DNA from: Polytrichum commune
Lineage: Eukaryota; Streptophyta; Polytrichopsida; Polytrichales; Polytrichaceae
Assembly: GCA_950295325.1 (NCBI GenBank)
Contig: OX485804.1
Span: 45,694,001-45,758,000 of the forward strand
Direction: 5' to 3'
Length of the DNA: 64,000 nt
In this document: in pieces, positions 14,075-64,000 of the stretch
How the letters are laid out: each line of letters starts with the position of its first letter
Position numbering within the stretch: the stretch's first letter is position 1
Position numbers and translations under genes: made by a program
Notes under the pieces: generated by a model
The model's database searches: none
The model's input: the letters and a program-made list of their open reading frames with translations, nothing else
What the model was told of the DNA's origin: nothing

Positions 14075-14335
14075 ATGTTTAGGAGACCATGGCATTCCTA
14101 GCACTCAAAACCGTTAATTTATTCTATTTTATTATGTGTGAGGATCCGCATGAACAAAAATTCATTGAAATAGCATTTGGTTAAGGGCATGATCACATGT
14201 GACTTCACACTACACTTGAGGGTAGGTGACCACACTGCATGATTTTGGAGGTGTCTTGGGATGGCCTTTGGACACTTTCGTTTGGGCTCTCAGAATTTCA
14301 TGGTCACGGCTCTTGGCTCGTGTGTGAAGTGGCCC
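14075..14335 (-). mobile_element. Truncated copy of the TAA-duplicating TIR family
   Basis: This is the reverse complement of the left half of the element at 16872-17369. It ends in the terminal inverted repeat CTCGTGTGTGAAGTGGCCC followed by TTA (14336-14338). The other end is missing; similarity fades near 14075. Confidence 0.75.
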
Positions 14336-14339
14336 TTAT

Positions 14340-15490
14340 ACATGGGAGAAGCTATGTAACCAAATTAGAACACATAGAAACCTTGACTTTCATCAACCAT
14401 AGTTGATTACACGATCTTGAATACTTTTTTTAACTCAATTGTAATAGCCTCCTTACACATTTGTTACATTTTGAGAAAGTACATGAAAAAGTTTTAAGCA
14501 TAGTACAAACCTCAAGTTCCCAAAGTGTTTGTTATGGGCACTTCAAACTTAGTGCTTTCATTTAACACTTACATGCTAAAAAAAGGTGGTCGTTTGCAAC
14601 CACCCATTTATTTATTTTCTAGATTTATCTAGAGTTTTGCCAAAGACAAATCTCATGCCATGCACACATGCACATCTATGACACATTGCGATTCCATACA
14701 TAATTAATTTGCTTCCATTTTCTATGAAAAGTAATTGATAAAGGAGGGCATTTTTGCATGGGATTTGTGGATTGGAAAACAATCATACCAAAAAAAAAGG
14801 AAAGAGAGAAGAAGACGTGAAGAGTTGACATTTACAATGAAAAAAATTAAAGAACATAAAATTGAATAAAAGAGAGGAAGATGTGGCTATCAAACATTAA
14901 ATCTGCATAGTTATCATAGTAACTATAATAACTATTTTAGGCTCATCAATCGATATGATTGGGGCGACCTCCATAATGAGCACAATAATCTTCACTGTTG
15001 TTAATATTCACATGATAATAAGATAATTATAATAAGACAATCACATGAGCCATGAATATTATTATAAGGCAAATGGCTACGGGCATGATTAGGATTTGCT
15101 AATCATTATGCAGCAATTGCTTGTTTCATGTCCTATGAGAAATGAATCATCATATAGTAAAATGCCCACTTAGAACAATCAAAAAACCAATGGCGTTCTA
15201 AAATTGACATGTAGATTTTGCATGATATTTGTTGATTTACATTGACTTTTAATGTCTCCATAGTGAACATTTCGGAGGGGGTCGGTTTTAGAACCATGTG
15301 CGATACTAACTTCACAAAATCACAACTAATTGTAAAAGAATCCCAAAATGATGATTTACAAATTCATGCTTATTGTTTCTTCTTGCGTAGACAGGACATA
15401 TATATATTATTGGACCCAAAAAATGACCATGAGCCCTTAAATGGTCATTTAAGGGCCATTCACCCAAGGGACGTCAACATTAAACAACAA
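14340..15490. other. Intergenic, no gene seen
   Basis: AT-rich sequence with no supported coding region and no clear repeat. Confidence 0.45.
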
Positions 15491-15930: not shown

Positions 15931-16870
15931 TACAATTAGGGCTTAGACTATGGTGAAGAAGTGCACCGGTCAAGAATTCTAGAGGAATGGAGCATTATGA
16001 TTGGCTACAAAATTGGTTCTTCACTGGCCATGGTATTATAGTACGACCAAAACTTCTTTGGTAAAGAGCTTCAAGCATGGATTAAAAAAATATGACATGG
16101 CTGCTAACATGGCAACACTTTTTGCTAGTTCTCTAGAGGTCAAGTTTCTCTAGCAACCTCAAACCCTCTGCCAATAAACTCGACCTCCAAAGATCTCGAA
16201 CTCGAGGCATTTTAGAATTTTAATTTCTCCAACTTGTCCGCCACACCAACTGTTGCCTAAATGAACCTTGTCTCGTGGTTGAAATTCTCAACCGACTGGT
16301 GCACTTCTTCACTGTAACTTAGTCCAAACCAACCCTTAGTGTTGAGCAAAATAAATAGAATTGGTGACACTAAATCCAATATTGTTTAGAGCCAATGTAC
16401 ACGACATGCATTAAGGCAACAATATGTGGCTAGGAATTGGCAATGAAATTGTGAAGACCCTTATCTTTTCAGACACCCAAGACCACACGACCTCAAGACT
16501 TTTCACGTGTGTGCCTGCACTTTTTCCATTGCGACCTCCTCTTCCAGTCACTTCCCCCTGGAAGTTGCCGCAAGAGCTACGGGTGCCACTTCGGATGACA
16601 ATTCATTCAAAAACGACTTCAACTTCCAATTGTGTGGTGGTCGTCATAAACCCTAAACTAATCACAACACAAAGGCGTGAGGGATTGATCACACTGGCCG
16701 GTTCTAACACCACCCGTCAGCATCTCCGACTGTAATAATGTGAAAATTGATGGGCCAATATCTATTTCTCAGCATAATGCCCAACAATTTCACGATTGAA
16801 ATCGGACAAATTTTTTGGTGTGATCAGGGCATGGGTCACTAACTACACATGTGGTTAGGCTTTTGGTGTA
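15931..16870. other. Intergenic, no gene seen
   Basis: No coding region is supported. A fragment near 16340-16385 carries the AATAGAATTGGTGACACTAA motif, which occurs in reverse complement near 35620 and 49400. An open stretch at 16424-16735 shows no recognisable domain. Confidence 0.45.
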
Positions 16871-16871
16871 A

Positions 16872-17369
16872 GGACCACTCCACACATGAGCCAAGAGCCG
16901 TGACCATGAAATTGTGAGAGCCCAAAAGAAAGTGTCCAGAGGCCATCCCAAGACACCTCCAAAATCATGTAGTGTGGTCACATATCCCCAAGTGTAGTGT
17001 GAAGTCATATGTGATCGGGCCCTCAACCAAATGCTATTTGAATGAATTTCTATTCATGTGGGTCCTTACATATAATTAAATAGAACAAACCAATAATTAT
17101 AAGCGTTTGGAGTGCCATGGCCTCCCAATTTTGTGTTAAGCCTACCTCAAGAGGTGGTTTTTAAAAATAATTCAAGTGACCATGTAACATGATCCATTTG
17201 ATGCCATGTAGGAGTCCATCTAGACTTCACATCCATCTTGCATTCACATACTCCGTTGGTCCCTCAAGCGTAGTGTGAAGCGAACTTGGACCGGCTCCGC
17301 CTTTGCCACCAATGAGAGTGCTTGAAGTGTAATGGTCACGGGCTCTCAGTCTCGTGTGCGCAGTGGCCC
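16872..17369 (+). mobile_element. 498-bp TIR element with TAA target duplication
   Basis: Ends are imperfect inverted repeats (left GGACCACTCCACACATGAG, right CTCGTGTGCGCAGTGGCCC) and both sides are flanked by TAA (16869-16871, 17370-17372). A second full copy lies at 24943-25675 and a truncated inverted copy at 14075-14335. Three-base TAA/TTA duplications are typical of PIF/Harbinger-type non-autonomous elements (Tourist-like MITEs). No coding capacity. Confidence 0.82.
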
Positions 17370-18301: not shown

Positions 18302-21300
18302 ATGAATGAGCTAGAGGCCCAAGGGGACAAGGTACAGTGGGGGGACTCCGAGGCCGATCTGCCCTCCGATTGTTACTCCTCCGATAGTGATGAAAGCGAT
18401 GCAGAAGTTCCAGACGTGACGGATCCATTCGCTACTACTTCCAACGGTGGTGCTCCATCAAGTGCGTCTTTCTTCTTCTCCTTCATCTTCTACTTCTACT
18501 GTTCCCACTGAGTCCCTTTCCCGTGGTCGCTATGGCGTCTGTTTGAGTGCTTCCACTTAGGTGACAATTTAACTCTCGAAACTTGTTGTTCGACCTGCAG
18601 ACCACAGTTTTTCCTGGCATGAGGTACATGAGTCGGGTTATGGTTGTTTTCTTTATGTTGAGGAGAATGGTTTGCGTACTTGTAAGTTATTGCAGAAAAT
18701 ATGAAGTTGACCAGCCTTTGGCTCATGTTAGTGATGCTGAGAGTTGGACACTCTCTGTAGAACCTTTGATGAGGAGAGAACTTTCAGCTGGAGTTTGTAG
18801 TGTTTTGGTATTGAATGACGCAACTGTCAATAATGTGCATAAATATATGATTTTTTGGTTGTGGTTGTCTGCAAATGCCTTGATGAACATGAGGAACATG
18901 AGGAACATGCTTGCATTGAGCTTTGAGCTCTGCCGTGGTCACTTAGTGCCACTTCAGTCTGGAATTTGGTGTTTGACCCTGCTGCAGACTACAATTTTCT
19001 CTGGCATTAGGCATGAGGCATATTATGGAACTATGTTGTTTATGTTGAGGAGAATGGTTTGCGAACTGTTAATAGTGCAAATTATATGAGGTTGACTAGT
19101 CTTAATGAGCTTATGTTGGTGATGTTGAGAGTCTAGCACTTTTCTGTAGCACTTTGAGGAGGAGAGACAACATTCACCTGACAATTCGTAGTGTTTTGGT
19201 ATCGAATGATGCATCTATTATTGAATTTGCATAGAATTATGAATATCTGGTGTGTGGTTTTCTGGAAATACCTTGATGAGGAACATGAGGAACATGCTTG
19301 CATTGCTGATGTTGGCGTCTGTTTTGTGCTTCCTTCCGCTTAGTGCTACTTTAGTCTTGAAATTTGGTGTTCGATCTGCAAACCGCAGTTTTTCCTGGCA
19401 TGAGGCATGAGGGGCGTTGGAGAACTATGTTTATGTTGAGGAGGATGGTTTGCGTAGTGATTGTAGTGCAAATACGAAGTTCACTAGTCTTTAGCTCATG
19501 TTGGTGATGTTGAGAATCTGACGCTTTCTGTAAGTTAGCACTTTGATGAGGAGAGACAACGTTCGCATGGCGATTCGTAAGTAGTGTTTGGTATAGAATT
19601 ATGTAAGTGTTAATGAATTTGCAGAAATATATGATTTTCTGGCTGTGGTTTTCTGCAAATACCTTGATGAACATGACGAACATGCTTGCATTGAGCTTCG
19701 CCACATTTTGTTTGTCATCTACTAGTTGTCAGAGTCTCAATAAACTCTTGCATGTGCAAAGGTTTGGGGTCTGCTAAACTTCATCTCAGGTGTGGTCAAG
19801 CAAGGCTGTTATTGCCTAGGTTGAGGGTTTTGGTTAGTGAAGGCTGTGAGTTCTAGTTGTTGAATGTGGTCGGTGGATCCAGTTGTTATTCTTGAGAGGA
19901 GCACCTGTTAGAGACACTGAATTGCAGGATGTTCTAAAAGAAGAGTAGGTGTGATGTCCTAAAAGGAATGAACGGGGATGGCTAACAGGGGTTGCGACCA
20001 CCGAGAATAAAGCGCTGAACTTGGCCTCAGTTAGTGGGAGCACAAACAGTGTTGCAATTAATTGCGGAAAAGGTAACGGAAAGGAGATTGATACTGGTCG
20101 AGGTTGGAAGCCTGTTATAGGTGGTAAGCTTCAAGGCCTGGAAGAGAGTGCGCCAATGCAGGCAGCCAATGGAGGCCCTGTGTCATCATCTCCGTCATCA
20201 AAGCAGCAGACCAGCAGTGAGAAATCCAAGTCGCCTCCTGCTGCAAACCCAGCTAATGATAAGCTCAAGAAGGATGGTAAACATTCTCTTTGTTCCTCAC
20301 CCTCCATCCTATACCAATTATCTGATTTATTGTGGCATCAAAAGTGATGGACCATGTTGACTAGTGTCATGTAGCAGCAAGTGTCCCATGCCACCATCTT
20401 TGGTTGCCACATATTGATTGCAAGATTATTTACCTGGGTTGGTGATGAATATATTGAGATGTACCAAGTCAAATGTATAGAGTAGCTGCAGAGGAGCAGG
20501 TTGATTTTTATACGAGGCTCTAGGAAATGTGGATGTGTACTTGGCCAGAGATTTATGTGGGGCCCTCAAGTTCTTGTCTGGATTTTGGCTGCAGGGAATG
20601 AAAGCGACTCTGATGTCAGGAGGGTTCCAGAAATGTCCGTCAAGGGTGGAGGATCTGGTGCAGGCTCATCACACACTCAAGACAAAAGCTCAGCTGGGCC
20701 TCCTCAGAGGAAGAGAGGAGGAGCATCAGCTGATAAAGAACACAAGAGGCTGAAAAGGTTTTTTCTACAGATCATTCTTGAAGTTGTGAATCGTCTTATC
20801 TTAAATCTAGTATGGTGTGGAGCTGACAATATAAATCATTGACATGATATGAGCAGACTGTTGCAGTCTGTGATACACTGCCTAACCTATGGTAACAACT
20901 TATAGTAGTGTTAGCGAAGAGAGAGATAGATTAGCCCATATTTGACAAATGTGTTTCAGTGGCATCAGCAAGTGCTGTGGAACTGTGTGGTCAGATTAAT
21001 TATTCCTTATGCTGTTTATCACTTTTGGAGCAGCTGAGCTGGTAGAGGATCACCTTACTAACTTGATTACTGTTGTGGCGGTCAGATTGCTTAGAAATCG
21101 TGTGTCAGCCCAACAAGCCAGGGAAAGAAAAAAAGCTTATCTCAGTGATTTGGAAGTTCGGTCTAAGGAGCTTGAACACCGCAATGCTGAGCTGGAAGAG
21201 CGGGTGTCTACTCTTCAAAGAGAGAATCAGATGTTGCGTCAGGTACACATTGTGGTCACAACAAAGCAGCATTTGTTTGTGAGCAATTGAAAGGGCCTAG

Positions 21301-21554
21301 TGATGAGCTTCATAACATCCAGAAATAGTAGCTACTGGAGCTTAATAGTGTCTGTTGCTTTATGGAAAATATTTGGGCTGCATTTTATGGATTGTACTTG
21401 GAGTATTTGATTTGATGTAGAAGAGTTGCATCATTCTACCCAGTGCAGACAGTAGGACTTAATTAATCTGGAAATTTTCTTACTGCAGATTGTGAAGAAT
21501 ACTGCCCTTAAGAAGACTGGACCTGGTGGAAGCCCTGCTGGGGGTGCTCAGTGA
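18302..21554 (+). CDS. HY5: HY5-type bZIP transcription factor, five exons
   Basis: Light-response transcription factor of the ELONGATED HYPOCOTYL5 family, a nuclear protein that binds ACGT-core sites and is degraded through COP1. Coding exons read as 18302-18461, 19989-20276, 20595-20757, 21086-21242 and 21489-21554, giving 277 residues. Each junction keeps frame with GT/AG. Exon 2 could instead start at 20031 (acceptor CCTCAG), giving 263. Residues 152-162 hold [11 protein letters not shown], matching the COP1-binding VPE motif. The basic region is around N208-R216 ([13 protein letters not shown]) and zipper leucines fall at 226, 233, 240, 247 and 254. The C-terminus is short (KNTALKK..). 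The protein is much longer than the 168-residue Arabidopsis HY5 because of an N-terminal Ser/Gly/Asp-rich extension. Serine 230 stands at a zipper core position where Arabidopsis has valine. Confidence 0.95.
18531..19700 (+). repeat. Three tandem copies of a ~390-bp unit in HY5 intron 1
   Basis: Units at about 18531-18920, 18921-19309 and 19310-19700 share blocks such as GGCGTCTGTTT, GACCTGCAGAC.ACA, TTTCCTGGCATGAGG, TTTATGTTGAGGAGAATGGT and GAACATGCTTGCATTG. The CTGGCAT(T) block recurs at 18614, 19001 and 19395, so the period is 387-394 bp. The copies have diverged and none stays open in one frame. They fill most of intron 1. Confidence 0.85.
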
Positions 21555-23945: not shown

Positions 23946-24940
23946 AAATTTGAGGGGAAAGCAATGAATTTGTGTTGGAATGGAGAACCCTCTACAGTAT
24001 GTGCAATTTCAAGTCCTACTACTTGGACTAATATAAGAAGACCAAATACCAATTTGCGGATAATTGATGATTTGTGCCTTGATGCAAATTCTTAAGAACA
24101 ACATTGTAATTACAGATCATAAGTCTCGAGATAAGTAACTACCTTGTGCATCACTCTGGGACATATTTGATGATAGGTTGTAAGGTTATAAGAAAAAATT
24201 CACGGTTTCAATGTTCTATGTTGAACTATTTGTTAATTAACTACGACCTTGCAAAACATTCCATTGATTTGAGATGGAGTTTCAAGGATAATGTATATGT
24301 ATATAGAGAGAGATGACGTTGAATCCTATGTTGGTGTGAATGAGAGACACTTCACCTTGGATCATAACCTCAAACTTGCATGTGAACCTGAAATAGGTTT
24401 ACTAGACCATGTATTTGCTTACAATAAGAGCATGATACAATCAACAAACACATGAAGATTCTCCTTTTAGAGATTTATGCTCTTAAGGTTGATGCTATGG
24501 ATTGTTTTCCTCTTTCATTCAAATGTCATTTAAGAATCATAAATTGTTATTGAATTTACTTTTCCAAGAAGGTTGTGGAATTTGTGCAATTTAATGGATA
24601 TGTGTGGCACCAATCCATTGTACAAATAACATTATAGACACATCTTCAACAATCTTCGGACAAGATTTAATGTCTGAACACGTTATTGGGGCATGAAAGG
24701 TTGAAAACGTTGCAATGCACTGGCCCTTTACATAAGATACTTAATGAGCCTTCTTGTAAGGTAATATAGAAATGCACTTGACCCACCCATTTTAGGCCAA
24801 ATTAAATATGAAAGAAATGTCGACTTATAATGAGATCCCAACATTTTCACCAATAATGGCCAATTATATATGTTGTGGCTGGTTATCAATTTAGTTATCT
24901 TGCAATTATGGACGATGATAACCATGGGTCTCATAAAACT
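23946..24940. other. Intergenic with repeat fragment, no gene seen
   Basis: 24305-24420 belongs to a dispersed family (AATGAG.GACACTTCAC ... CATGTGAACC.GAA..GG) also seen at 27130-27232, 47325-47432 and, weakly, 7740-7800. No coding region is supported. Confidence 0.5.
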
Positions 24941-24942
24941 AA

Positions 24943-25675
24943 GGGCCACTTCACACACGAGCCAAGAGCCGTGACCACGAATTTGTGAGAGCATAAGGAA
25001 AGTGTCCAAAGGCCGTCTCAAGACACGTGCAAAATCATGTAGTGTGGTCATGGACTCTCAAGTGTAGTGTGAAGTCATATGTGACCGGGCCCTCAACCAA
25101 ATGCTATTTCAATGAATTTCTATTCATGTGGGTCCTCACACATGATGAAATAGAATAAATCAACGGTTGTGAGCGTTCGGAGTGCCACGATCTCCCGGTT
25201 TTGTGTTAGACCTACCTCCAAGAGGTGGTTTTTGAAAATAGTCCAAGTGACCATGAAACATGATCCATTCAATGCCATGTAGGAGTCCATGTAGACTTTA
25301 CATCCATCTTGCATTCACTTACTCTGTTGGTCCCTCAAGCGTAGTGTGAGGCGAACTTGGACTGGCTCCACCTTTTCCACTAATGAGAGTGCTTGAAGTG
25401 CAATGGTCACATGCTCTCATACCAGGGCCACACCGGTAGGCCCAGCCAGAAACACCAGCCCTACGTATTCTCCGGGAATACAGGGCTGGGATTTCAGATG
25501 GCTGGAGCTGCTGGTTGCAGGCTACCCGCCTTCTTCCAGCCACTCCAGTAGCTCCAGCCATCTGAAATCCCAACCCTGTATTCCCGAAGAATACGTAGGG
25601 CTGGTGTTTCTGTCTACTGGAGCTGTTGGGGTTTTTGGTGTGGCCTTGGTATCAGTCTTGTGTGTGAAGTGGCCC
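24943..25675 (+). mobile_element. 733-bp TIR element with TAA duplication, carrying a nested insert
   Basis: Terminal inverted repeats GGGCCACTTCACACACGAG and CTTGTGTGTGAAGTGGCCC are flanked by TAA on both sides (24940-24942, 25676-25678). After removing the 232-bp nested element and its 3-bp duplication, 498 bp remain, exactly the length of the copy at 16872-17369. A PIF/Harbinger-like non-autonomous family is the best fit from the TSD; no transposase is present in the window. Confidence 0.87.
25420..25651. mobile_element. 232-bp near-palindromic foldback element, nested
   Basis: The two halves are long inverted copies (about 90-100 bp arms). The outer ends are TACCAGGGCCACACC and GGTGTGGCCTTGGTA; inner arms share CAGCCCTACGTATTC and ATTTCAGATGGCTGGAGCT. 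TCA flanks both sides (25417-25419, 25652-25654). The empty site is preserved in the related element at 17341-17360 (CTCTCAGTC), so insertion boundaries are well supported. The insert has far more GC than its host element. Open frames crossing it are not genes. Confidence 0.88.
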
Positions 25676-28269: not shown

Positions 28270-30200
28270 ATGTGGACATGCTTCTTATGTAATGTCAAAA
28301 GAATGTGATCGATCACAATAATTGTTGCTTATGTTACGCATGAGGTTTTGTTATCAATGGTCACATTTTGTTTGCAAAGACTCGTCATAGACCTCTCTTT
28401 AACATATACGTGAGGTGTTCTAGAACGGGTCAATTGTCAAGAGTGATATTATCGTGCTCATGTGAACATAATGACTTTTTTTTTTGTCTTTTCAGAAGCC
28501 ATTATAGGTTGAAAGTCCAACTCGAAGTGTGTTGGTGAGCGATCATGAGAAGGTTCAAAGCTCGTGTGAGGGAAGACTAAGGTGGTGTAGGGATTTTTTC
28601 TTTTTCTTTTTTTTTGCAAGGTATGCTTAAAGATTGCTTTCTCTTATGTACATATTGTTCTTTTATTTTGTTTCTGTTGATTTTTGGTTTCAAAGAATCA
28701 AGTCAAAATCAAATAAGGAGCTAGAAATTACTCCATTGCTGGTTGTATATACAAGTACCAAACATATAAGCTCAATCTCTTCCCCTCTATTTTCTCGATG
28801 TGTCTCGAGAAGGTGGTCATATCCATATTGTAAAGATTGATAATCAAAGGATTCTGTTAAGACGTTGAACAGCAAAGGTTTATTTAGATGTCTTGATTGA
28901 CATATACTCTAAACACGAAGGTACATTAACAAACAAACATGCCACTACGTTATTACAATGCTGACTAAAATCGCCTTGTTGTCTGTAACGTCATGTTAAA
29001 CCCAACTTGCTTCTTATTGATTTGATGTCGTCTATGTAGTTAATCCTCCTCACAAGTTACAGATTCACGAGCTTCATAGGTTGGACACAAGAGGAGAAGA
29101 TGGCAGCAGCTGATATTGCTGGGTCGTTGATGGTTCTTGAGTATTGTGAGAGCAAGATAAAAGGAAAACCAACTTTGGCAAAAGTCCCCCAGTCATTGTC
29201 TTGTTTTGAACAAACAATACCCATCTCTGTAACCATCCTTAACTTTAGCCATTCTATGTTCCAAGATCTACAAAGATGTGTTTGTCGCATAGGGTGGGCA
29301 TGCTTTGTACTTTAGGATACTTTCATATGTACAAATACTCAAAGTGTCAAGGAGTTGTGAAAGTTATGTAGGTAGTTTAGAAGGAACTTGCAAAATCTTT
29401 GAGGATATATGCATTGTATCATCTTTGAAAAGTATAGAAGTTAGCACATCAAAGGAAATATAAATATATATATGTCATGGGTTCCAAATCATAATTGTTC
29501 ATAGCTTGTATATGCCTCCAAGGGCCAAAAGGTTTAAGACTAGAAATACATGGATGTTTTTGCAGGATAAAAGAAGAGCAGGTGCTCATGAGCGGTGCAA
29601 AATCCCAGACAAGGATCTTCCTTTTTGGTCACCACCTATAGAGTACAGGTGTGTTTCTATTAAATTTTCCCGTCTTGGGCACACAATGCCACATATGGGG
29701 AGGATCCAACAACATAGTGAACATAATTTTTTTTATCGTACCTTGATTTGCAAATATGCACCACAAATCAATGCTTGATCTCCAAGTAAAGCCATATCTC
29801 CTTTTTCTAGTCTCGCAAGTCAAAGGATTGAATATGCATGGAAGTTATGATATGCCATATTCCATCACGTATTTCTTTTTTTGCTTTATAGCTTCGTTTT
29901 ATGTGTGAATGGTTCAAAGCTTTGCAATAGAAGTTGGATTTACTTTAAAACTAAAATTTTGATCATGAAGATGGCAATGGCATAGATACACCATCCATAT
30001 CCTAATGAACCAAGGATTTCATGTTGAACTTGTATCAAATTTGTTTTACTTGGTTTCAACATCAACATGAGATGTAATAGACAATTCACTCACACATTCA
30101 TGGATACTCCCCCTCTCCCCTGATTGTCGATATCACAACAATCTTGACATCTTTCACACAATTTTCTTTCAACATTGCAACATTCACATCTAAAGAGGCA
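28270..30200. other. Upstream flank of PACRG, no assigned gene
   Basis: Contains a short open stretch from ATG 29101 (AADIAGSLMVLEYCESK) and another from ATG 29512 to a GT donor near 29648 (PPRAKRFKTRNTW...). Neither matches a family I know. The second ends in a phase that could splice to PACRG exon 30371, so it may be an alternative 5' exon. Confidence 0.35.
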
Positions 30201-32057
30201 ATGAGCTCAAACTTTTGCACATGGTAAACATTTGTTCATGAAAATGTGCATCATTTTGCAATGAGGTTTCCATCAACATTTACTAAAGTAGGAAGAAACA
30301 TCATGGGACATGAAATGGGATTCCTCTACTTGAGAGAAATGATGAGAAACAACTCGCATCCTTTTTGTAGGTATAGAGCCCCAAGGAAAACTCCCAAACA
30401 ATATACAAAGAAGGGAGATGGTGAAAAGATATTGCAAGGACTTTGTCCACCTTGTAGTAAATTGCCTAAACCTAAACCACCTATGAGTGGAGCTTTTAAA
30501 AAGAGAGATAACCCGCCCAACTCTTTGGTAAGACCAACTATGCTTAAAAATGCCTTCAAATTGAATACAAACCTCAATATTTGAATGATGAACTTCATAC
30601 TAAAGGATGATGTTCTCAATGGAAATTGTGTTTGTTCAAAGTCTACAATATACTTCAATTCACCATGTGCAGAAGTCCCCGTCATTTATTATTGCAATGA
30701 AGTGCATCTACTAATTCTGATAGCATGACCTTTGTAGCAATGGATTTGTAATATGTTTACAGTTTAGAAAAGTTTATCAAAGGGGAGATTTGCCATTAGC
30801 GGTTGAGCATAGTGGGTCCAAGAATGCTCTTAATTGGAAAGTTGAGTTGGCCAAAGTGGACTATCATTGGTACTTGCCTTTATTTTTTGATGGTATTCGG
30901 GAGAAAGAAGAACCATTCCGATTCATAGCTGTTAAAGGGGTGGAAGACATGTTGAAGGTATGTCATTCTATCATATGTTTTGTCGTGGTTACTAGTTGTT
31001 CATCATTCTCTCGTCAACAACCTTAGAATGTAAAAGAATCCATGACCTAGCTCCTCCTAGCTTGATACATTCAAGACATTTTTTTAAATTATTTTTTGTT
31101 AAAGCATTATTTTCAGAAAATTTCCTCTCTATCCTTAGCAAGCTCATCTCACCATCGATGTCCCAAATCCTTATTGGCAGAGTGCTTGTGAGTGCATGTC
31201 TCTTGACCATAATTGGTGGACAAGAAGAAATTGTAGTTTATATTCATGGGTAGTAGGATCATGCAGGCTTCCCCGTAAAGTCTTGTAGTGATGTTGTTAG
31301 CTCATCAAATACTCTCAAAGGGTGCACAATAGTATACAAAATAATTTTCACTAATCTCTCAAATGAAAGAGAATCGTGATAAATCTATGCTAATACAAAC
31401 ATTGAAATGCATTACTACTACAGGCCGGGGGAGGAAGAATATTGCCTGTCATTCCTCAATTGATTGTCCCCATTAAAGCCGCTCTCAATACTAGAGATCC
31501 TTCTGTGATCAACATCACCTTGATGGTAGTAACTCATTCAACCAAACTATAAACCGAATTACGAAAGTGAACTCCATATCATATGTCTTAGAGTTGAAGT
31601 GACGAAAGTTTACAATGTGGTCCAAGGAATTTATCAAATCACAATTCTTGCAAGTATAAAATACTTTAATCATACTTGTATGCAAGGATTGTCTAACTTT
31701 CAACATCTAGCCAACTATTTCATCGTGTGTGAAGGCTATGAAACATGCTGTACTAATTTGAGGATTGTTGTGTTGGCTACTACGATTTCATAGCTTTTGA
31801 TAAAGTTGGTGCTATCGGAGGAGAAAATAGGCGAGTCCATAGTGCCTTATTACCGCCAAATTTTACCCATCTTAAACATCTTCAAGAACGATGTGGTGAA
31901 CATTGGTGATGACATCGATTATGCACAACAAAAGAAGATGTGCATAAGTGACCTTGTTCAAGCAACGTTGGAGACTTTTGAGCAACATGGAGGTGAAGAT
32001 GCTTTTATAAACATCAAATACATGATCCCCACTTACGAGTCTTGCGTTATAACATAG
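30201..32057 (+). CDS. PACRG: PACRG-type flagellar doublet-microtubule protein, five exons
   Basis: Homologue of Parkin co-regulated gene protein, which in cilia and flagella sits with FAP20 at the inner junction of the A and B tubules of axonemal doublets. Exons read as 30201-30223, 30371-30527, 30763-30957, 31424-31525 and 31794-32057, giving 246 residues (human about 257), frame-continuous with GT/AG at every junction. Landmarks are [76 protein letters not shown] and [19 protein letters not shown], in family order and without gaps. No stop or frameshift is seen. The first exon (MSSNFCTW) is the uncertain part; an exon ending near 29648 would also fit the phase. In plants the gene is expected only where sperm swim. 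Confidence 0.93.
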
Positions 32058-32500
32058 TTCTTGGGTTCTCGCAATCACCCTATGCATTGTATCAACCAAG
32101 CAATGTTAGACGTTGGCACGTTGATAGGTGTTGCAATTAAATCCGTAGTCGTTTTAGTTGCATTTCACCTAGTGATCTTGCTCAACTTTGTCCTAAATTG
32201 CATTGGACGTCATGCATCATTCTTCAACTAGATTGGGTCTAGGAAGTTGAGTATGGGAGGATACAAAGTTCGATATATGCACACATCAAACCTAATGGAG
32301 TTGTTTTGGCGCATTGAGGAAAGAAAGGCCGATAATGTGTGGTTTTGCATGTACACGTTTATTGCCTATAACAAACAATGCATCATCCAAGTGGTTTTCA
32401 AACCTTACAAAAACATTGGACTTGTGCACTCGAGATACATGCTTCCATATTTATGTACAATGATTGTTTCAATAAGTGTGTGTGTGTTACTATTCAGAGT
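32058..32500 (+). other. PACRG downstream flank, probable 3' UTR
   Basis: No recognised coding sequence follows the PACRG stop. An open stretch at 32247-32507 lacks similarity to anything known. A MITE-like element begins at about 32505, giving an outer limit for the native 3' flank. Confidence 0.4.
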
Positions 32501-32504
32501 TAGG

Positions 32505-32683
32505 TAGTGCAATAACGTTTTATTCAAGAGTTCAATTTTTACTAACGGAAGTTCATTAGGTTGTTCGGACATTATAAAATAGAAATGACTTTGCTTGGTA
32601 AAATATTACATTCTTATTAAATAATTATTGCATTGCGTAACTTTGAATAGTAACACGCACTAATTGGGATAATCAGTGTAATG
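32505..32683 (+). mobile_element. MITE-like element (AATTAGTGT family), partial copy
   Basis: Matches the right three quarters of the element at 39935-40167: GAGTTCAATTTTTACTAA, TTAGGTTGTTCGGA, GGTAAAATATTACATTCT, CGTAACTTTGAATAG and CACTAATT.GGATAAT. The left terminus is degraded here. Confidence 0.65.
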
Positions 32684-39934: not shown

Positions 39935-40167
39935 CTACACTAATTATCCCAATTAGTGTACGTCGCTATTTGGAGTTACTCAATGCAACAACCTCTTACT
40001 CAGGAGTTCAATTTTCACTAAAGAGAGTTCAATAGGTTGTTCGGATATTATAGAACATGATTACCTTTGCTAGGTAAAATATTACATTCTCATTGAATAG
40101 TTATAGCACTACGTAACTTTGAATAGCAACACACACTAATTTGGATAATTAATGTAGTAGTAATTCT
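39935..40167. mobile_element. MITE-like element (AATTAGTGT family), full copy
   Basis: The left end ACTACACTAATTATCCCAAT and the right end CACACTAATTTGGATAATTAATGTAGTA are inverted counterparts extending about 45 bp, through GTCGCTATTTGGAGTTAC and GTAACTTTGAATAGCAAC. Length about 233 bp. A partial copy lies just 3' of PACRG. Confidence 0.75.
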
Positions 40168-41723: not shown

Positions 41724-44197
41724 TCAGGCCCCACTTGCATACAAACGGGTCCAATCCCTGGCTGCTTACATCACACCAGAGCCACAAACCCAACAATAAG
41801 AGGATTTGACAAACTGTGAAACTCACATGTGTATGACAAGCCACTATGATCATATTAACATCCTCTACAAAATCTTTGAAAACTGTTCACAAAGAACCAC
41901 TCACCTGTCTCAACGGCCTCAGCTTCATTTGTCTTCCAGTGCTTGGCAATATTCTCAGCCAGAGGATCATCTGGATTTGGTGCACTTAAGAGAGCCTGGA
42001 TGCTGATAAACAACAGTACACATATTTGTGTTAGTTATTCCTGGTTTTGCACAGGCAAGAGGAACTTGGAACTCCAATAGATTTACCTGACATGCTTGTC
42101 AACACATGTCTGTGAATTAATAGTGACTACAGAATGTGAGAGCTCCAAGCATACAGCTGCATAAAAAAAAATACATCACCTTGCATGGACTACAGCTATG
42201 AAAGAGACATGTTATTGAATTGCAAGCATGGTAAAGAAGACATGGCAATTTAACCAGAGCTAGCTACTATATGAAATAACAAAGCAAAAACTTTGTTATT
42301 AATTTTCACAGCTGATCTGCAGCCAGATTGTGACCACTCTAACCTGAGTAGCACAGTGCGAATCTGAAGAGCTGGGCTCCACTTATCTTTGAGAATATCC
42401 AGGCAGATGCGCCCCAGCTAAACCTCCACATAGAATCCAAAACACACCATAAGGAGAAAACCTTGCAATCTCTCCAACTATATATATGAGTATGGTCAGT
42501 AAATGACTATCTGTTGGTATAAAGATCAACAAACTGGAAGAATATGTCTCATAGAGAACTATATACGCTTGAAAGTAGAACTTCATTCCCTCAAAACCAT
42601 GCAAAGAGAAAAATCAACTCACCTTATCAATATTGGGATGGTAAATCTTCGTCAGAAAGCGAACCTGACAGTTGTTCACAAATGTATGATTATCAGGGCA
42701 CTCTTGTATAGTAAATGGATTGAAGAAGCCACAGACCCATTTCTGACTGATCCACATGCTTCAGGCCTGGGGTTTACCTCTCTGTCATCTATAGTGATAT
42801 TACTAGGCACTTGCACGTTCATGTATATGTTCACTAACATGTATATTTTGAGCACCAAACTAAGTCAATAAAGGGCTGATGTATTGTCAGCCCTCTAGAG
42901 AAAAAGTACATTACTTAAAGCAGAACCGTTAAACAGAATCCACGAGCAACACATCTGATAATAGATGAATAGAAAACAACATTGATTGAAAAATATCAAT
43001 CTATTTCTTTCTGCAAAGTATGGCAAACCTTGGGAGCGGCCATTGGGTACTCCTCCGGTAAGAACAACTCCAGCTTGAACACCCCACCTATAATTCAAAG
43101 AATATAATCTAAAATCAATTATCATTCAAATCAATGGTCCAACGAAGCCTGTTCATGCCGAGACAAACCAAGAGTGCCCAAGCCAATATCAGCTTCCCAG
43201 TTACCAAGGTTTGGTTCGCTTAGATTCTGAGCTCCACACATATATCCCTCATTAATCTATTGGATATGCAGATTGACGTGGAGAGAGAGTAAGGTATCAA
43301 AAATGCACCAAGGCACATACAATTGACAACGTCTGAATTGTACCCTCAACTCCTGTGGGAAATGGCTTCAAAGGAGTCCCTGTCAATCGCAATCTTGGCA
43401 TAATATGCCACCTTTGAATCTACCAGTTCAGCTGAGCAGCCTTTTACTGAAAGAGTAACCGTACCTTCATATGGTGACTGCGATGGTCCTAATATCATCA
43501 CATTGAAATAACGTAGGTTCTCCTCAGATGGCGATGCACTGATGCCTGGAGCTGGAGAGACAAAACATATCAAAACACTGCTCACATTTCCAAACCCAGG
43601 GTAAAGGGAGGAAGGCACTCCTGCATGTCAACTCTGATGCTGCTACCTAAGTGCAGAGGGAGATGACATTAAATACCATAATCGCTTAAATTTGAATTTC
43701 ACCAGCATTTGGAATCTTCCATGAGGCTAATCTAGAATCTCATGGAAGTCGAAACCTCATCCTAACTCAAGTAAAGGAACATAGAAAGACATACCAGGCT
43801 CACTGAGCAAACGCTGCGTTTCCTGTAAATAAACAAATCCATCCAACCAGCCATACCCCGTCCATCCTTGTCAACAATACATTTTTAAGAACTCCAAAAA
43901 CCTTCAAAAAAGGACCTAAAAACAGCTCCAAGATATCTAATTCCTCGCAGAAATTTGTAGAAAAAACAAAAAACAGAGCACAAATACGGCCTCTCACGAA
44001 TCGTAGACATGACACCACGGTACTCGCAACACAGGACTCGGCAATCGGAACCTTCAAGCGAAAGAAAAAAACAGAAAGAAATTCGGAGGTTGTGAAATTC
44101 GAGGTGACGAGAAACAGAAAGGCAATCAAATCTCGTGAGAGTGCCGCACCTTGATGATCCGTCGCGGAAGGTTGCTGTTGGCCGTGGCGCCAGACAT
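41724..44197 (-). CDS. UBC13: UBC13-type ubiquitin-conjugating enzyme E2, eight exons
   Basis: E2 enzyme of the UBC13/UBE2N family (UBC35/36 in Arabidopsis). With a UEV/MMS2 partner it builds lysine-63-linked ubiquitin chains in DNA-damage tolerance and signalling. Coding exons on the minus strand are 44197-44150, 43822-43795, 43551-43465, 43087-43029, 42664-42623, 42417-42344, 42002-41905 and 41761-41724, all with GT/AG and continuous phase, giving 157 residues (Arabidopsis 153). Landmarks in order: [80 protein letters not shown] with the catalytic Cys, [15 protein letters not shown] and the end WTRLYASGA. The N-terminus is four residues longer than Arabidopsis. No defects are seen. Confidence 0.97.
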
Positions 44198-47605: not shown

Positions 47606-47775
47606 GATTCAACATTGCCTTGTTTATTGTTGTGCTACGAACTTGTCATAACCTTAAGGGACGAGTTTTAAAATATGATGAAACCCATATGATTCAACAT
47701 CGCCTTGTTTATTGTTGTGCTACGAACTTGTCATAACCTTAAGGGACGAGTTTTAAAATATGATGAAACCCATAT
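47606..47775 (+). repeat. 85-bp tandem duplication, nearly exact
   Basis: The unit starting GATTCAACATTGCC and ending GAAACCCATAT occurs twice in a row (47606-47690 and 47691-47775) with one base difference near the start (ATTGCC/ATCGCC); a third start follows but diverges at once. The near identity implies a recent event or an assembly artefact. Confidence 0.92.
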
Positions 47776-47779
47776 GATT

Positions 47780-49430
47780 CAAACAATGTGGCAATCTTGT
47801 CTCACCAAGAGGGCAGGTCGTTTTAAGCATCACAAAAACAAGATTTGCAAAAAATAAAAATTCATTAAACTTTGTGAAATGGGTACATGGAACTTACTTG
47901 CCCAAGCTTTTAGTTGAAAATTTGTCATAACCGATCGCTCATCCAATAGCATAAGGGTTATCACAACTCGCCATAGTTTTTCATCAACAGAGTTGCGATA
48001 TCATTCACAATTCCCATGTTATGTTCACGAGTTGATCAATTATTGTCAAATAAACAACTCGAGCAAGTGGACGACTCGTCGCTCACGTGGCTCGTTATCC
48101 ATTATCTTCTTGTTGGTGATCTAGTCCATAACGAAGGTGTATATCATAAAACACCCATTGACAGAGGACACATCCAATTTGTAATTGGCTTCATGCTCTA
48201 ACTTGGTTCACGACTCTGGTAACCACGAGTCTTGTAATATGGCATAGTTATTATCAATGCAGTGCAATATGAATATGAATATCATAGACGATTTTATCGT
48301 TGTGTACGTACTAGAAGACGATAACAAATATTTGAACAACCTCCTACCATATCCCATTGATTGACACTTATAAGAGTGTGGACAATGCAAAGGTAACGGC
48401 AAGGACCATGATTTTCTCCCACAAACAAAAAACTTCAATCCCAAGAGGAGTCGATGCAATACCTATTACCTTCAACATGATTGGTTGCATGCTCGTTCCG
48501 ATTTTGTGGTCAACTAACGTTGGCTTCATCAAGACCACTTTTGCCTTGATCACGATTCACATTTGCAACCTACAAGTGTTTGTTATTGTTCATGATCTAT
48601 CTTATAGCGGGTATTGGTACGGCTACATACCTAGTCCCACTACAATAGATAAGGCAATTGGATTTGCCCCAACCACTAACTAAGATTCGGTGTACCTTAG
48701 AGAGGAATGCCGATGACGATCCCCAAGAAATCGCCAATATGAATCCGAGTAGCACGATCCTCATTTCTATGGATGAATTATATTCGTCGGCACCGTTGCA
48801 ATAAAGCGTGTGGTATAGTTTCATCCGTATAGTATCTTGAGTGAGGCCACCATGAGTGGATGAAACGGTGGCATATATAATGGATGAAACGTGTTGAAAT
48901 GGATGGTTTTTGGTGACTTGAGATTTTGAGATTTGGTATGAATTTCGGCCAATTGTGAAAGTGAAAAACAATCTTCAGCTTTCGGCTATACTTTGCCCCG
49001 AAAAATTAAAACCATCGAGGTATTATCTACAGTGAGCAAATATTGTATGTGCCAAATAACCAAACTTCAAAATTATGTATGTCACAATATGAAGTTCATG
49101 CAAAAGCACAAACACTTTTTTTTTAATCTCACTAACTTACGTATAATTTACCTAGTATAAAGTTGAAGTCCGCATCACCCTATCAAAGCAGATGTAGGTT
49201 AGATTACTCATGCCTACAGAGAGAAGAAACGTTGACCATGCGATCAATGTGATTGGAATGTCTGTTCGACCCACCCTTGGTATTATGCCCTCAATATTAT
49301 GCCCTCGGTAGGTTAGATTACTCATGCCTACACTTTGTACCATGATCAACACCATACTTTGCGAAGCATACTAACTACACTAAATATTGTAGTTAGTGTC
49401 ACCAATTCTATTTGTCTTGCTCAATACTAA
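47780..49430. other. Unassigned, no gene seen
   Basis: Overlapping open stretches on both strands at 48357-48971 show no recognisable domain. No gene call. Confidence 0.4.
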
Positions 49431-58100: not shown

Positions 58101-58308
58101 GAGTTATGGATAAAATTTAAACAGTTGGCAGTGTTCTCATATGCAGAAATTAATCATCTGCCCTTTTGATCGTCTCTGAATTGCAGCAATATTGCAGGCC
58201 CTCTGAATTTCCTTAATCTTCAGCAGTTCCCGAAGAACTAGGTCAGTTTACAAGAATGCAAAAGTGCTCCTTTGATACCGGGTTTGGGTGACAACAGCCA
58301 TTCTGGAT
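55100..58308 (+). promoter_or_regulatory. Upstream region and probable 5' leader exons/introns of the CTR1-like gene
   Basis: From about 55.1 kb the sequence is richer in GC and CT/GA tracts, like plant promoter and leader sequence. A donor-like CAG/GTACGG is near 56153, an acceptor-like CTTTCAG near 56385 and a further acceptor (TTGCAG) near 58187. Open frames here stop before the main start, so I read the block as promoter plus spliced untranslated leader. A GGA microsatellite (56257-56281) and a MITE-like element (56967-57269) lie inside. Confidence 0.5.
56967..57269 (-). mobile_element. MITE-like element (GGTCCAAG family), inverted copy, in leader intron
   Basis: The left end GGGTGGGTTAGGGTCCAAG and the right end CTTGGACCCGGACCCTAATG...CCCTCCCC are inverted counterparts, with TTA on both sides (56964-56966, 57270-57272). 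The interior is the reverse complement of 23395-23765 and 44700-44955. Confidence 0.72.
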
Positions 58309-61300
58309 ATGCCCACTCCAAGATATAATTACCTCCCACTTGAGCAGTCTGCTAAGAATGCTACATCTACAGTGGAGAATGCCGGTGATGAATGCGGATA
58401 TGGCCATTATGGAAACGTTGTTCCTTTGGTGAAGAAAGAGACGTCTTACAAGGCAAGCATTTATGGGGCATCAGCAGATTCTTTATATGGTAATGTGGAG
58501 AACACAAGTAACATGCACGAAAATGGGAGGCTCGGAATGCTGGACAAGACCCCGTCCTTCTGGGTGCCAGCAGATAGGGTTCCCTTTGGGAAGGTTGAGG
58601 TAGCAAACACAGAGAAGTCAGCTTTCACCTACAGTCAGCTGGAGAGGAATGCGTATGATGAAACAATTCCCTCTAGTCCTCACATGCTCCTAGAGACAAA
58701 ACCAAGTGTCATGGCAGAATTTGAGTATCAGCCAACTCGAGTGAAGAGCTTGTACAACAGTTTGCATTCTGACAGGGCCCCATTGCCTGTGGAGAAGGGC
58801 TACTACATTTCGAAGGAGTGGGGATTGCCCTCTTTGGAACGGAAGGGGTCTATATCTTCTGAAACTCCGTCTATGAGTGCGACTGAGCGGTTGGAGAGAA
58901 CTGGGAGTGGGGGCCCTAATGGACTTTTCCAGTACTCCTCTCTGTTGAGACAGTCAAGTGGTGGAAGCTGCACAGACAGCCTCATAGCCAGTGATCACCC
59001 TGGAGCTTCACCAAATCCGTCCTCTAATAACCTGAGTGACTCTACATTTCTCAATTCTTTGTATGCATTGGATTCACTGAAGCATGATGAACTTGAAGGA
59101 GGCCCATCAGGCACCGGGGGCACTGGGCAAGATTCATATGGTGAAAGTTCAAGTGAGGAGGGCATCAGATCTTGGATGCGGCAAACAGAGCAAAGCTACA
59201 GCTTGCAGATGGCGCTTGCTTTGAGGCTGATGGCAGAAGCTGAATTGACAGAAGAGTCTCGACTCCTAGGTTCACATTTCAAGGAAATTGGACATGCTTC
59301 GGTCTGTTCATCTGCTCGCAGATCTGTAGAGGCAACAGCACATCGCTATTGGGTATGACTTTAGCTCTATTTGCATCTGTGAGACCAGAACCATCTCCAT
59401 TCTAGGGAAAGCTGCTGGGTCTCAAAAGGGTGAACACTTGGCCTGAGTTGGTAATTGTTGCAGCTAGGTATTGCTGCGTTTGAAATACCTTTCAAAGGAC
59501 ATGTAACGTTTTCAGACCTTGGACAACTGCCAAAATAACTATGCTTAACTAGATTTTTTTCAATACATTTTAGGGAACAACTATAGTTAACTAGAAATAT
59601 TTCAAACCGATTTGAAGAACAACTATAATTAACTAGAAATATTTCAGACCAGATTCAAAAACAACTATAGTTAACTAGAAAAATTTTAGACAACTATAAT
59701 TTGAGAGTCCCAAATCTGTAAGGAGCCAACTGGCGAGTTCTTTCATTTATCTCAAAAAATGAAATGAAATATATTACAATAACATTTTAAAGAGACCTTA
59801 TGAATCAATGCTTGTCACCCATGCTGGCTCATCGCAAGAGGGAATAGAACCCACCGTTCCTTGCAGCAGTTGAACCCATAATACTTTAAGTTACTTATAG
59901 ATAATGAGGTCGTGCTCATTGGGTGTCGATTGAGTCCGAGTCACAAATGGAATTAGGTCCCAATTTTAAAATTATGAATAAAAAAAGAAAAAGATATAGA
60001 TGCTTTGTTATGTCTTGGTACTACACTGCATGCTGCACTCAACTTTAGTTAACTAGATTTTTTTGGTAGACCGAAATTAAAATAACTACATTTAACTACA
60101 TTTTTTGATAGGTCAAATCATGAACAACTATAGTTACGAAAGGCAACTAGTTAACTAATAGTTGAATTAGTTGGTTAGTTTTCCAAGGTCTGAATGTCTC
60201 ATCATCACTAAGATTCTGTTTAATTTTAGAATTCGAACAAGAAACTGTATGAAAAATTTCAAGAAAAAAAGTTTCTTTTTCGTATTTGCCAATATCTTGG
60301 CTGAGATACCTTTTTACCTTGGAAAAAAACTGCTTCATGTGGCACATTCAAAAGACTGACTTTCTAGCTGCTTCTTGGCACTGTTGAAGTTAGTAGTGAC
60401 AATCTCATTGCCATTTGCGAGTCTAGTAGAGGACCTTGAGACTTCTGTGATTGGCATACATGGAATGGACACTTTTGTTCTTATTGCAGTGTAAGATTTT
60501 GGATTAGAAATCTGTCTCTTATCTTCTTAACTTGAAGAACATTGTTTTTGTTTCTATGAATGTGTTCTTGTTTCCTCAGTGTTTTGTCATGATTAGATTA
60601 TTTAGTTGCAAACTAAATGTGAAGATTCATTTTTCTACTATTACTTCAATGGATGTGTTCTTGTCACATTTGAAGTTCTTTCAGGCACGTCCGAATAAAT
60701 TTGCACGCCCAGTCAAATACAATGAAAGCTGAAATTGTCAGATGTTTTGAGAGTGTTTTATGCATGTTTGCATTAATTCACAACTGACAGGTTCTCTTTG
60801 AGGATTATTGCAGGTGAATGGCAGCTTAGGTTACAATGACAAGGTGCAAGATGGGTTTTATCAACTCTGGGGTGTGAATCCATATGTCTGGGATTTGTGC
60901 AACCACAAGGAAGATAGTGGCCGGATGCCGGCCTTAGAGTCACTTCGAGCTGTAGATCCAAGAGATGCTACTTTTGATGTTGTGATAGTAGACACAATTG
61001 GAGACACTCGTTTACTTGAGCTAAAGGAGAAGGCCCTGGATCTCAAACTTAAGGCAGTTGATACTAAGAAGCTTGCAGAACAGCTTGGGAAGCTTGTATG
61101 TTCTGCGATGGGGTAAGTTATCCTTAGTAACACTCTCTTTATAAATGTGCTCATCAAGAATGTGCTGTTGATTCTCATCCCTCATGTGTTGATTCTCATC
61201 CCCCATGTGTTGATTCTCATCCCCCATGTGTTGATTCTCATCTCTCATGTGTTGATTCATTCAAACAAGAGCCTATTTGATATTCACATTTTTTAGTTAT

Positions 61301-63738
61301 TTTTCTGACATTCATATATCAATACCTTTTTGCTGATGGGATTGCTGTGGGGCTCATTTCTAGTGACATGTCAGTCAAATCAGATGACTGGTTGTGTATT
61401 GTCTGTATTGATATTGAGGAGCACTTTGTTCTGAATAATAAATTGAAGTGGCTGTCTGATGATTGAAGAGGTGTAGCTCCTGCTGAAAGTGGGGATCTCA
61501 TGCATCGGTGGGAGTCAAGGAGTCGGCTCCTGAAAAATAGGCTTTGCAGTGTTGTACTTCCAATTGGGAGTCTTCATGTAGGCTTGTGTCGACATCGAGT
61601 TCTTCTTTACAAGGTAGTGACCACTCATTCTTATTGTTGAAAGATTTGCTGAGGTTAAGTAAATGCTTTTTTTAGATGCGCTGGATACAGATAACTGTTT
61701 TTTCTTGAAGTCACAAGCTAATCTTATTATCATTGTGAATCCTCTATAGTGTTGGATATCTGTAGTCTTCAAGAGTTTCAAAAAAATTGCTGGAGAGTGT
61801 CTACACTATTCTGAAAGTTATAAGTACTCACAGAAGTTTATATCCTTGACCAACTTGTCTTGTCTTGCAGCAGTTTCATATTTTAGTGTTTGTAATTTTT
61901 TTTGTAAATTTCTCCTTTGTTGTAGGTGTTGGCAGACAGTGTTAGCTTGGCCTGTCGAATTGCGCGAGGATGCAAGTTTTGTGACGATGATGGTGCTTCT
62001 TGCCTTGTTTTGTGTGGCTCAGACCGGTATGTACAAAGCTGCTGCTTCTATATTCTTTAGTTTCAATCATGTCAATTATTTTATGTAGCAGAACTGTTCT
62101 GGCCCAATGACTTATAAATCTTTTGGAATCTGAGATAAGCTCAGAGACATCACTGACAGCAATTTGTGGTTGTACCAAGTGTCTTTCTATTAAATGTACA
62201 TTGAACTAAGGAACCATACGCATCTTGTACAGCCAAATTATCACAGGAAATTACAATTGGGGTCATGTCCTAAGGTGAGTCATTGTTTGTGGTTGTTGAA
62301 AGATTTAGTTCTCCAGTATTTGTTTTAAATAATGAACCAGAAATCATGATATCCGATTATTCTGCAGGGAGTATCTTGTCAATCTCATATCCACAGCTGG
62401 AGAATTGAGTGATCCTGAAATCCCCATGAGTTCTTCGTCTGCTTTCTCTGTGGCTTCACCTCTTCGATTGCACAAGTATTCCACAATCCAAATCACAGAC
62501 GAACATCGAGAATTTTGCAGAGAGCTTGTGAGAAGTTCTTCTTTAGAGACATCTAGTTCACCATCAATGTGGACGGGTATTGCTAATGAGGCTGCAACAG
62601 CAGAGGAAGGTCAGTAGCCAGAACCTATGTCTTCAAGACTTGGTTCTTCTTTCCTGTACAAATTAGTTTTTTGGGAGCAATCTGTAGCTGCTTGCACAAT
62701 TTTTCTCTGTACTTCTCATTCATGTTCTTTCCAGATCTCAACATCTGTGTTCTATGCTTTGAATTTGTAACTTCTACTATGAGCATCGCAACAATAAGCT
62801 GGGACTTGGGAACTTCCTTAGATTCCTGGATGGCAACTGCCTTGAAGTCACTTCCTTCACGCTTGCTTGTTTATATGGGATTAATTTGTCTTGATGCTTG
62901 TTGTAAGTATGAAGGTTTCTTGGTTTTTATTAAGGCAGTCTGGGTGATGATGTATCTACATTACAATAGATTTTTGATTTACCTGGACAAAGGCACATTT
63001 TGCTTGTTTCATGACCATTCTCTTTTCACTCACATTTTATCTGCAATGCTACAATCTGTATTTGGTGCACAGTTGCTCGAAAGAAGGCTGCAGAAAGAAC
63101 TGAACAATGGCTTTCACCTACACTGACCCTCCCGAGCACAAGTAAAATACCAGTGATCCCTGGAACACCAACAGCTAGAAGCATTGATGATGTATGGATG
63201 TCTACAATGAATGACCCCTCGGGTGAATCTCTGCCAGTTCCCTACCTTGGTGAGAATCTTAAGTCGGTTGCTGAAAATCAAGTACTTGCATCTACTGACT
63301 CTTCATCAAGTGAGAAGTTAAGAAAGATAGAAGTATTTGAAGAAGCCCTTAATTGGACATTGCCAGATGATTCTTCAGGTGATTCTGATTATCAAGCTTT
63401 TGATGGGGAAGGAGGTGCAAATTGGTTAGTTGCAGACCCAGTAAAAGTCATATCTAGCAGTATGATCCAAGAAAAGAATATGGAGAACTCAGCTGCAGTT
63501 GATTGGGAGCTTAAGTGGGAAGGAGACAGAGTGGAGCCATCGAAGGGTGAACCATCCTGTTCCTGTTTTCGATATATGAATACTGGTGGCTCTGGACACC
63601 TTTCAGAGTGTTCAGATGGACTTGGCTATCATAGTGGCAATAGTGATGTGGAACTGGCAGAAGCATTAGTTGAAGCAGTTGGCGAGGAATGGGAGATCAG
63701 GTGGGAAGACATTGTCTTAAAGGAAAAGATTGGGGCAG
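58309..63738 (+). CDS. CTR1-type Raf-like MAPKKK (group B3), partial at right edge
   Basis: N-terminal 832 residues of a CTR1/EDR1-family kinase, a negative regulator in ethylene and stress signalling in plants. Start chosen at ATG 58309 (MPTPRYNYLPLEQ, like the CTR1 N-terminus). Exons are 58309-59352, 60814-61112, 61469-61613, 61926-62026, 62368-62609 and 63073-63738, in frame with GT/AG. After a Ser-rich N-terminus comes the EDR1 domain (about 285-590) with WMRQTEQSYSLQMALALRL, HRYWVNGSLGYNDKVQDGFY, GVNPYVWDLC, LPIGSLHVGLCRHR and VLADSVSLACRIARGCKFC. A Ser/Glu-rich linker follows, then WEDIVLKEKIGAG, the beginning of the ATP glycine loop, where the window's last exon ends. No PAS domain is visible, unlike the moss ANR/ARK kinase. 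Catalytic residues lie off the window. Confidence 0.94.
59512..60193. mobile_element. 682-bp TIR element in the first coding-region intron of the CTR1-like gene
   Basis: The left end CAGACCTTGGACAACT and the right end AGTTTTCCAAGGTCTG are inverted repeats. The left part has three ~52-bp tandem units built on AACTATAGTTAACTAGAAAT (59575-59690). The right end matches 10270-10425 in inverted orientation. No transposase; the flanking duplication was not clear. Confidence 0.7.
61166..61257 (+). repeat. 21-bp tandem repeat in CTR1-like intron 2
   Basis: About four and a half units of TGTTGATTCTCATCCCCCAT(G) with few changes. The reverse strand reads as a 7-residue repeat, but it lies within an intron and is not coding. 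Confidence 0.92.
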
Positions 63739-64000
63739 GTATTCAACAAAACTCCAGCTGCAGTTCCAATATTTAAATGTGTGTGACTATCAAGTGAGCT
63801 TTGTCATGTTGACAATTTATCTCTCCTGGTATTCACCAGTGACCCTTAATGGTTCTGCTTAAGGTTTGCATATATACCTAGGGGAAGCTCACGAGATAAA
63901 TATTTGAAATAGGTACGCTAAAAGAAATGGAAACACCATTGTTTTAGAGAATTTTTTTTTGTGCAGTGGTCCCTAAGTGTCAAGTGTGTTGATTCCCTTT
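63739..64000 (+). other. Intron of the CTR1-like gene running off the window
   Basis: Begins with the donor GTATTC after exon 63073-63738. The kinase-domain exons must lie to the right of the window edge. Confidence 0.85.

Follow-up and report, generated by a model that had tools for sequence, protein, structure and literature searches.

What does an intact PACRG gene in a 64,000-nt stretch of DNA tell us about the organism that carries it, and is the gene indeed intact? The whole of this stretch is referred to here as the window, and all gene coordinates are window positions. We find a six-exon, apparently intact PACRG gene of 309 codons at 29100-32057 on the + strand. Its joined coding sequence measures 930 nt including the TAG stop; every exon joins in frame and there are no internal stops. 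Exon 1 (29100..29228, 129 nt) begins with the ATG at 29100, comprises 43 codons and aligns with Chlamydomonas PACRG from residue 3. Exon 2 (29566..29648, 83 nt) has AG/GT borders, encodes the motif RAGAH and aligns with the same protein from residue 44. The end of the N-terminal arm and the start of the core are encoded by exon 3 (30371..30527, 157 nt). Exon 4 (30763..30957, 195 nt) contributes the conserved tubulin-contact histidine, H136 in Chlamydomonas and H139 in the window protein. Exon 5 (31424..31525, 102 nt) was placed by its GT..AG borders and its alignment to Chlamydomonas PACRG, and exon 6 (31794..32057, 264 nt) holds the FAP20-binding loop, with D261 and Q267 (D258 and Q264 of Chlamydomonas), and the stop codon at 32055-32057. 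The five introns measure 337, 722, 235, 466 and 268 bp (mean 406 bp) and have GT..AG ends in all five cases. The GC content is 41% in the coding sequence vs 35% in the introns.

The two upstream exons deserve comment. A first-pass annotation had described an intact PACRG gene at 30201-32057. Intactness is borne out by conserved blocks in order, a stop-free frame and GT..AG introns, and the family match (E 1.1e-74) excludes chance. The interval itself was right for exons 3-6, which lie inside it (718 of the 930 nt), and missed exons 1 and 2 (212 nt); position 30201 falls within intron 2 (29649-30370) and is not the start of the gene, which begins at 29100. On sequence grounds, exon 2 is well supported as a real exon by its collinearity with Chlamydomonas PACRG from residue 44. 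Inclusion of exon 1 raises the match to Chlamydomonas PACRG from 351 to 369.6 bits and extends the alignment to residue 3, and its donor, GTAACC, is weak relative to the consensus. With this gain of 18.6 bits and a weak donor, exon 1 appears more weakly supported than exon 2. A tblastn search of the window with the PACRG protein (E up to 10) revealed the six exons and two further matches at chance level (E 2.5 and 7.5), with no second PACRG copy in the window. A 201-base direct repeat (32480-32680 and 39956-40156, 80% alike) begins about 420 bases past the PACRG stop.

The family assignment was examined with profile and sequence searches. The Pfam family ParcG (PF10274) matched over profile positions 2-183 of 183, with E 1.1e-74 and 251 bits vs a cut-off of 22. 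A phmmer search against PDB sequences at E up to 1 gave 17 matches, 16 of them PACRG and one an allophycocyanin at E 0.94; a best match to a non-PACRG family, which the annotation had named as one refuting case, did not occur. All 16 distinct sequences at E 1e-50 or better carry the name PACRG or Parkin co-regulated. Among the solved relatives Chlamydomonas PACRG ranks first (E 1.1e-109), with window residues 4-307 aligned on chain residues 3-304. For the remaining 15 PACRG sequences, some of which are truncated 193-residue constructs, the match starts at window residues ranging from 86 (Tetrahymena-type PACRGA) to 122. Among the 16 PDB PACRG sequences, truncated constructs included, Chlamydomonas alone therefore matches the beginning of the N-terminal arm. 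The gene is an ordinary orthologue of an already known gene.

PACRG and FAP20 constitute the inner junction of doublet microtubules (PMC6994238). In the description given there, Chlamydomonas H136 is conserved and a likely tubulin contact, D258 and Q264 are contacts to FAP20, and the long N-terminus of Chlamydomonas PACRG (residues 1-117) enters the wedge between protofilaments A13 and A1. We compared the window protein with PACRG relatives at the level of residues in a MAFFT alignment. All three named contacts are kept, namely H139 (H136) for tubulin, and D261 (D258) and Q267 (Q264) for FAP20. The FAP20-binding loop is present as residues N258-I263. For its first residue PMC6994238 prints N225; we infer that N255 is meant, since the Chlamydomonas sequence has V225 and N255. 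The kept contact residues support the same mechanism as that of Chlamydomonas PACRG. The 309-residue product would most likely pair with FAP20 (CFAP20) to make the inner junction, a row of proteins by which the B-tubule of every axonemal doublet is closed onto protofilament A1. As in Chlamydomonas, the contacts of the PACRG core would be with B10 and A1 tubulin, and its N-terminal arm would extend into the A13/A1 wedge. The axonemes concerned in this plant would be those of swimming sperm, with the gene presumably expressed in spermatids, its product assembled with FAP20, and the resulting junction required for motility.

Among 109 columns invariant in four relatives, which include the close kin bovine and mouse, the window protein keeps 96 and changes 13; the changes include those at window residues 159 (H to W), 225 (Q to I), 256 (N to V) and 274 (G to S). 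PACRG of Chlamydomonas, bovine and Tetrahymena have 110 invariant columns in common, of which the window protein keeps 97 (88.2%). When each of these three was left out in turn and scored against the other three sequences, Chlamydomonas kept 97/105, bovine 97/108 and Tetrahymena 97/107 (89.8 to 92.4%), so that the window protein has the lowest of the four values, by a small margin. We see no clear sign of decay in these comparisons. A recent pseudogene or relic, still open by chance in a lineage without flagella (a conifer, Gnetales, an angiosperm or a conjugating alga), could produce the 13 changed columns, some of them non-conservative, as well as the lowest leave-one-out value, and the short introns are compatible with an angiosperm. 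We consider it highly unlikely in the face of 309 open codons, five GT..AG introns with all exon joins in frame, the three contact residues kept, and a conservation of 88.2% set against 89.8-92.4% in three relatives from flagellate organisms.

The same loop and contact residues bear on the identity and use of the product. The paralogue PACRG-like (PACRGL) is homologous to PACRG, and the PACRG-like protein is located at the basal body (PMC6994238); were the gene PACRGL, its product would act at basal bodies rather than at the inner junction. However, the loop that binds FAP20 is by the description in that paper absent from the PACRG-like protein, whereas it is present here with the equivalents of D258 and Q264, and the strong PDB matches (16/16) go by the name of PACRG. 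There is hardly any probability left for the paralogue. It could also be argued that the plant kept PACRG for a role outside flagella, as a homologue of its partner FAP20 exists in Arabidopsis, a plant without cilia (PMC6994238). Against a non-flagellar use, conservation of PACRG is reported across organisms that have cilia (PMC6994238), and the window protein keeps its tubulin and FAP20 contacts (3/3); we regard this use as very improbable. With high confidence we read the gene as a plant PACRG orthologue that is intact, and its product would act at the axonemal inner junction of swimming sperm.

The step from the gene to flagellated sperm was also made in the first-pass annotation. It fits the literature on flagellar genes and cilia. 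Most flagellar assembly genes are reported in Cycas and fewer in Ginkgo, and many were lost in Gnetum, conifers and angiosperms (PMC9023351); the main text of that Cycas genome paper holds no occurrence of PACRG. Basal bodies and cilia are present in cycads and Ginkgo and were lost in angiosperms and conifers (PMC4888484). PACRG itself is given as conserved among organisms with cilia (PMC6994238). The inference was nonetheless stated too firmly. FAP20 has an Arabidopsis homologue (PMC6994238), so a plant that loses its flagella does not necessarily lose every component of the inner junction. We regard flagellated sperm as a reasonable and plausible reading of the window PACRG in the light of these reports.

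Expression restricted to the male line had been proposed as well. In Marchantia, MpPACRG belongs to the antheridium flagellar gene set, 'most' of which depends on MpDUO1 (PMC6290024). Male-line expression of the window gene is carried over from Marchantia and would hold by analogy; the restriction need not hold in algae with zoospores. We searched the 1 kb upstream of the PACRG ATG for AACCG and RRCSGTT, which we take to be DUO1-type site motifs, and found 0 sites, where shuffles expect 1.2 and 0.6. No other flagellar genes were seen in the 64-kb window. Both results count against the sperm reading. Literature matches for PACRG and moss, among those listed, concern mostly animals, apart from PMC8128824, which reports upregulation of Physcomitrium PACRG in a mutant, judged from the context to be swi3a/b. 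A possible link of PACRG to the liverwort Y chromosome was sought in the literature, and only a citation of Yamato 2007 for MpPACRG came up.

The neighbouring genes were sought by a six-frame Pfam scan of the whole window in 36 frame tiles, at E up to 0.01 (12 tiles) or 0.1. The matches were bZIP_1, bZIP_2, UQ_con, ParcG, EDR1/CTR1 and a weak ATP-synt_8 (E 0.0035), the last taken as chance; no transposon proteins appeared at these thresholds. Four other long open frames tested with Pfam matched no family, and a tRNA scan and an Rfam scan at gathering thresholds returned nothing in the window. The 3' part of a bZIP gene lies at 20708..21551 on the + strand (bZIP_1 E 1.9e-9) in three coding pieces, its 5' part not located; we call it HY5-like by a motif that we presume to be diagnostic. 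A UBC13-like ubiquitin-conjugating enzyme gene (Pfam UQ_con) occupies 41727..43555 on the - strand in six coding pieces with short introns. Five of these pieces were found by tblastn with an approximate human UBE2N query (best E 2.5e-14) and the last by eye; a piece for the first 18 query residues was not located. An EDR1/CTR1-family gene extends over 58276..64000 on the + strand and runs on past the window end (Pfam EDR1_CTR1_ARMC3_pept E 1.6e-23; tblastn E 1.6e-25 with an approximate CTR1 N-terminal query). Only the first residues of its kinase domain are in the window, with a motif at 63705, and tblastn of the window with an approximate kinase query gave no match. Genes of the HY5 and CTR1 types belong to plants, and a protist or animal source is therefore unlikely. 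Taken together, the HY5-like bZIP, the UBC13-like enzyme and the EDR1/CTR1 kinase point to a streptophyte plant.

Several repeats accompany these genes. Upstream of the HY5-like gene there is a tandem array at 18574-19695, in which a 391-base unit is repeated about 2.9 times (75% matches), and a 174-residue open frame at 18565-19089 lies almost wholly within it. A dispersed repeat is found in three copies that are 86-89% alike, at 14079-14341 (inverted), 16866-17348 and 24940-25419; it may be a small non-autonomous transposon, though we offer this as a guess. At 47606-47782, an 85-base unit occurs in about two copies of 98-99% identity, probably a recent duplication.

The lineages that the first-pass annotation had listed were bryophytes, lycophytes, ferns and cycads or Ginkgo. 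The list left out the flagellate streptophyte algae, which belong on it, as a PACRG of Chara braunii has been studied (PMC6290024). Its inclusion of cycads and Ginkgo is opposed by the short PACRG introns. Mean introns are 301-373 bp in five liverwort assemblies (three of them Marchantia polymorpha subspecies), 264 bp in Physcomitrella, 133-172 bp in two hornworts, 111 bp in Selaginella, 499 bp in Klebsormidium, 1,017 bp in Picea abies and 159 bp in Arabidopsis (PMC9985172). Introns of about 30.8 kb are given for Cycas (PMC9023351) and of 7,884 bp for Ginkgo (PMC5118899). The mean of 406 bp in the window, a comparison made with one gene and with the plants just named, disfavours cycads and Ginkgo. 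Arabidopsis, which has no flagella, is also short-introned (159 bp), and intron size alone is thus no proof of a flagellate plant. A bryophyte or another streptophyte with short introns is a more likely source than Ginkgo or a cycad, most likely one of the former two, and it is our judgement that a bryophyte is the probable one. Beyond annotation the result is small: a six-exon model, and a streptophyte window with, most likely, flagellated cells.

How does the window protein compare with PACRG elsewhere? Two streptophyte counterparts have been described, MpPACRG of Marchantia polymorpha (LC102460), picked as a flagellar gene from the antheridium transcriptome, and CbrPACRG of Chara braunii (LC382019), whose expression was analysed (PMC6290024). 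Mammalian PACRG (7rro_YB, 8i7o_XJ) is of the same family, with a core about 63% identical, but has a shorter N-terminus and no match to the window protein before residue 106. Chlamydomonas reinhardtii PACRG (6u42_3V) is alike over nearly its full length, N-terminal arm included, with 171/300 aligned residues identical. Window residues 124-309 are identical to it at 123/184 (66.8%), whereas residues 1-123 are so at only 48/116, and the window protein differs by H159W, Q225I, N256V and G274S at residues common to the four compared relatives. In core identity to Chlamydomonas, the window protein is not closer than the bovine one (66.8% vs 134/201, 66.7%). The Chlamydomonas-type long N-terminus (1-117) is present in the window protein, collinear from residue 3, the part from exon 1 being weaker. 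We are not aware of any plant sperm doublet whose structure has been solved. We lean, with some reserve, towards the view that a long N-terminus in the A13/A1 wedge, as described from Chlamydomonas, goes far back in the green lineage and was retained in plant sperm, whose doublets would then have an inner junction of the Chlamydomonas type and not of the animal or Tetrahymena type. The green-type N-terminus common to both proteins thereby offers a small, testable prediction on the plant sperm axoneme.
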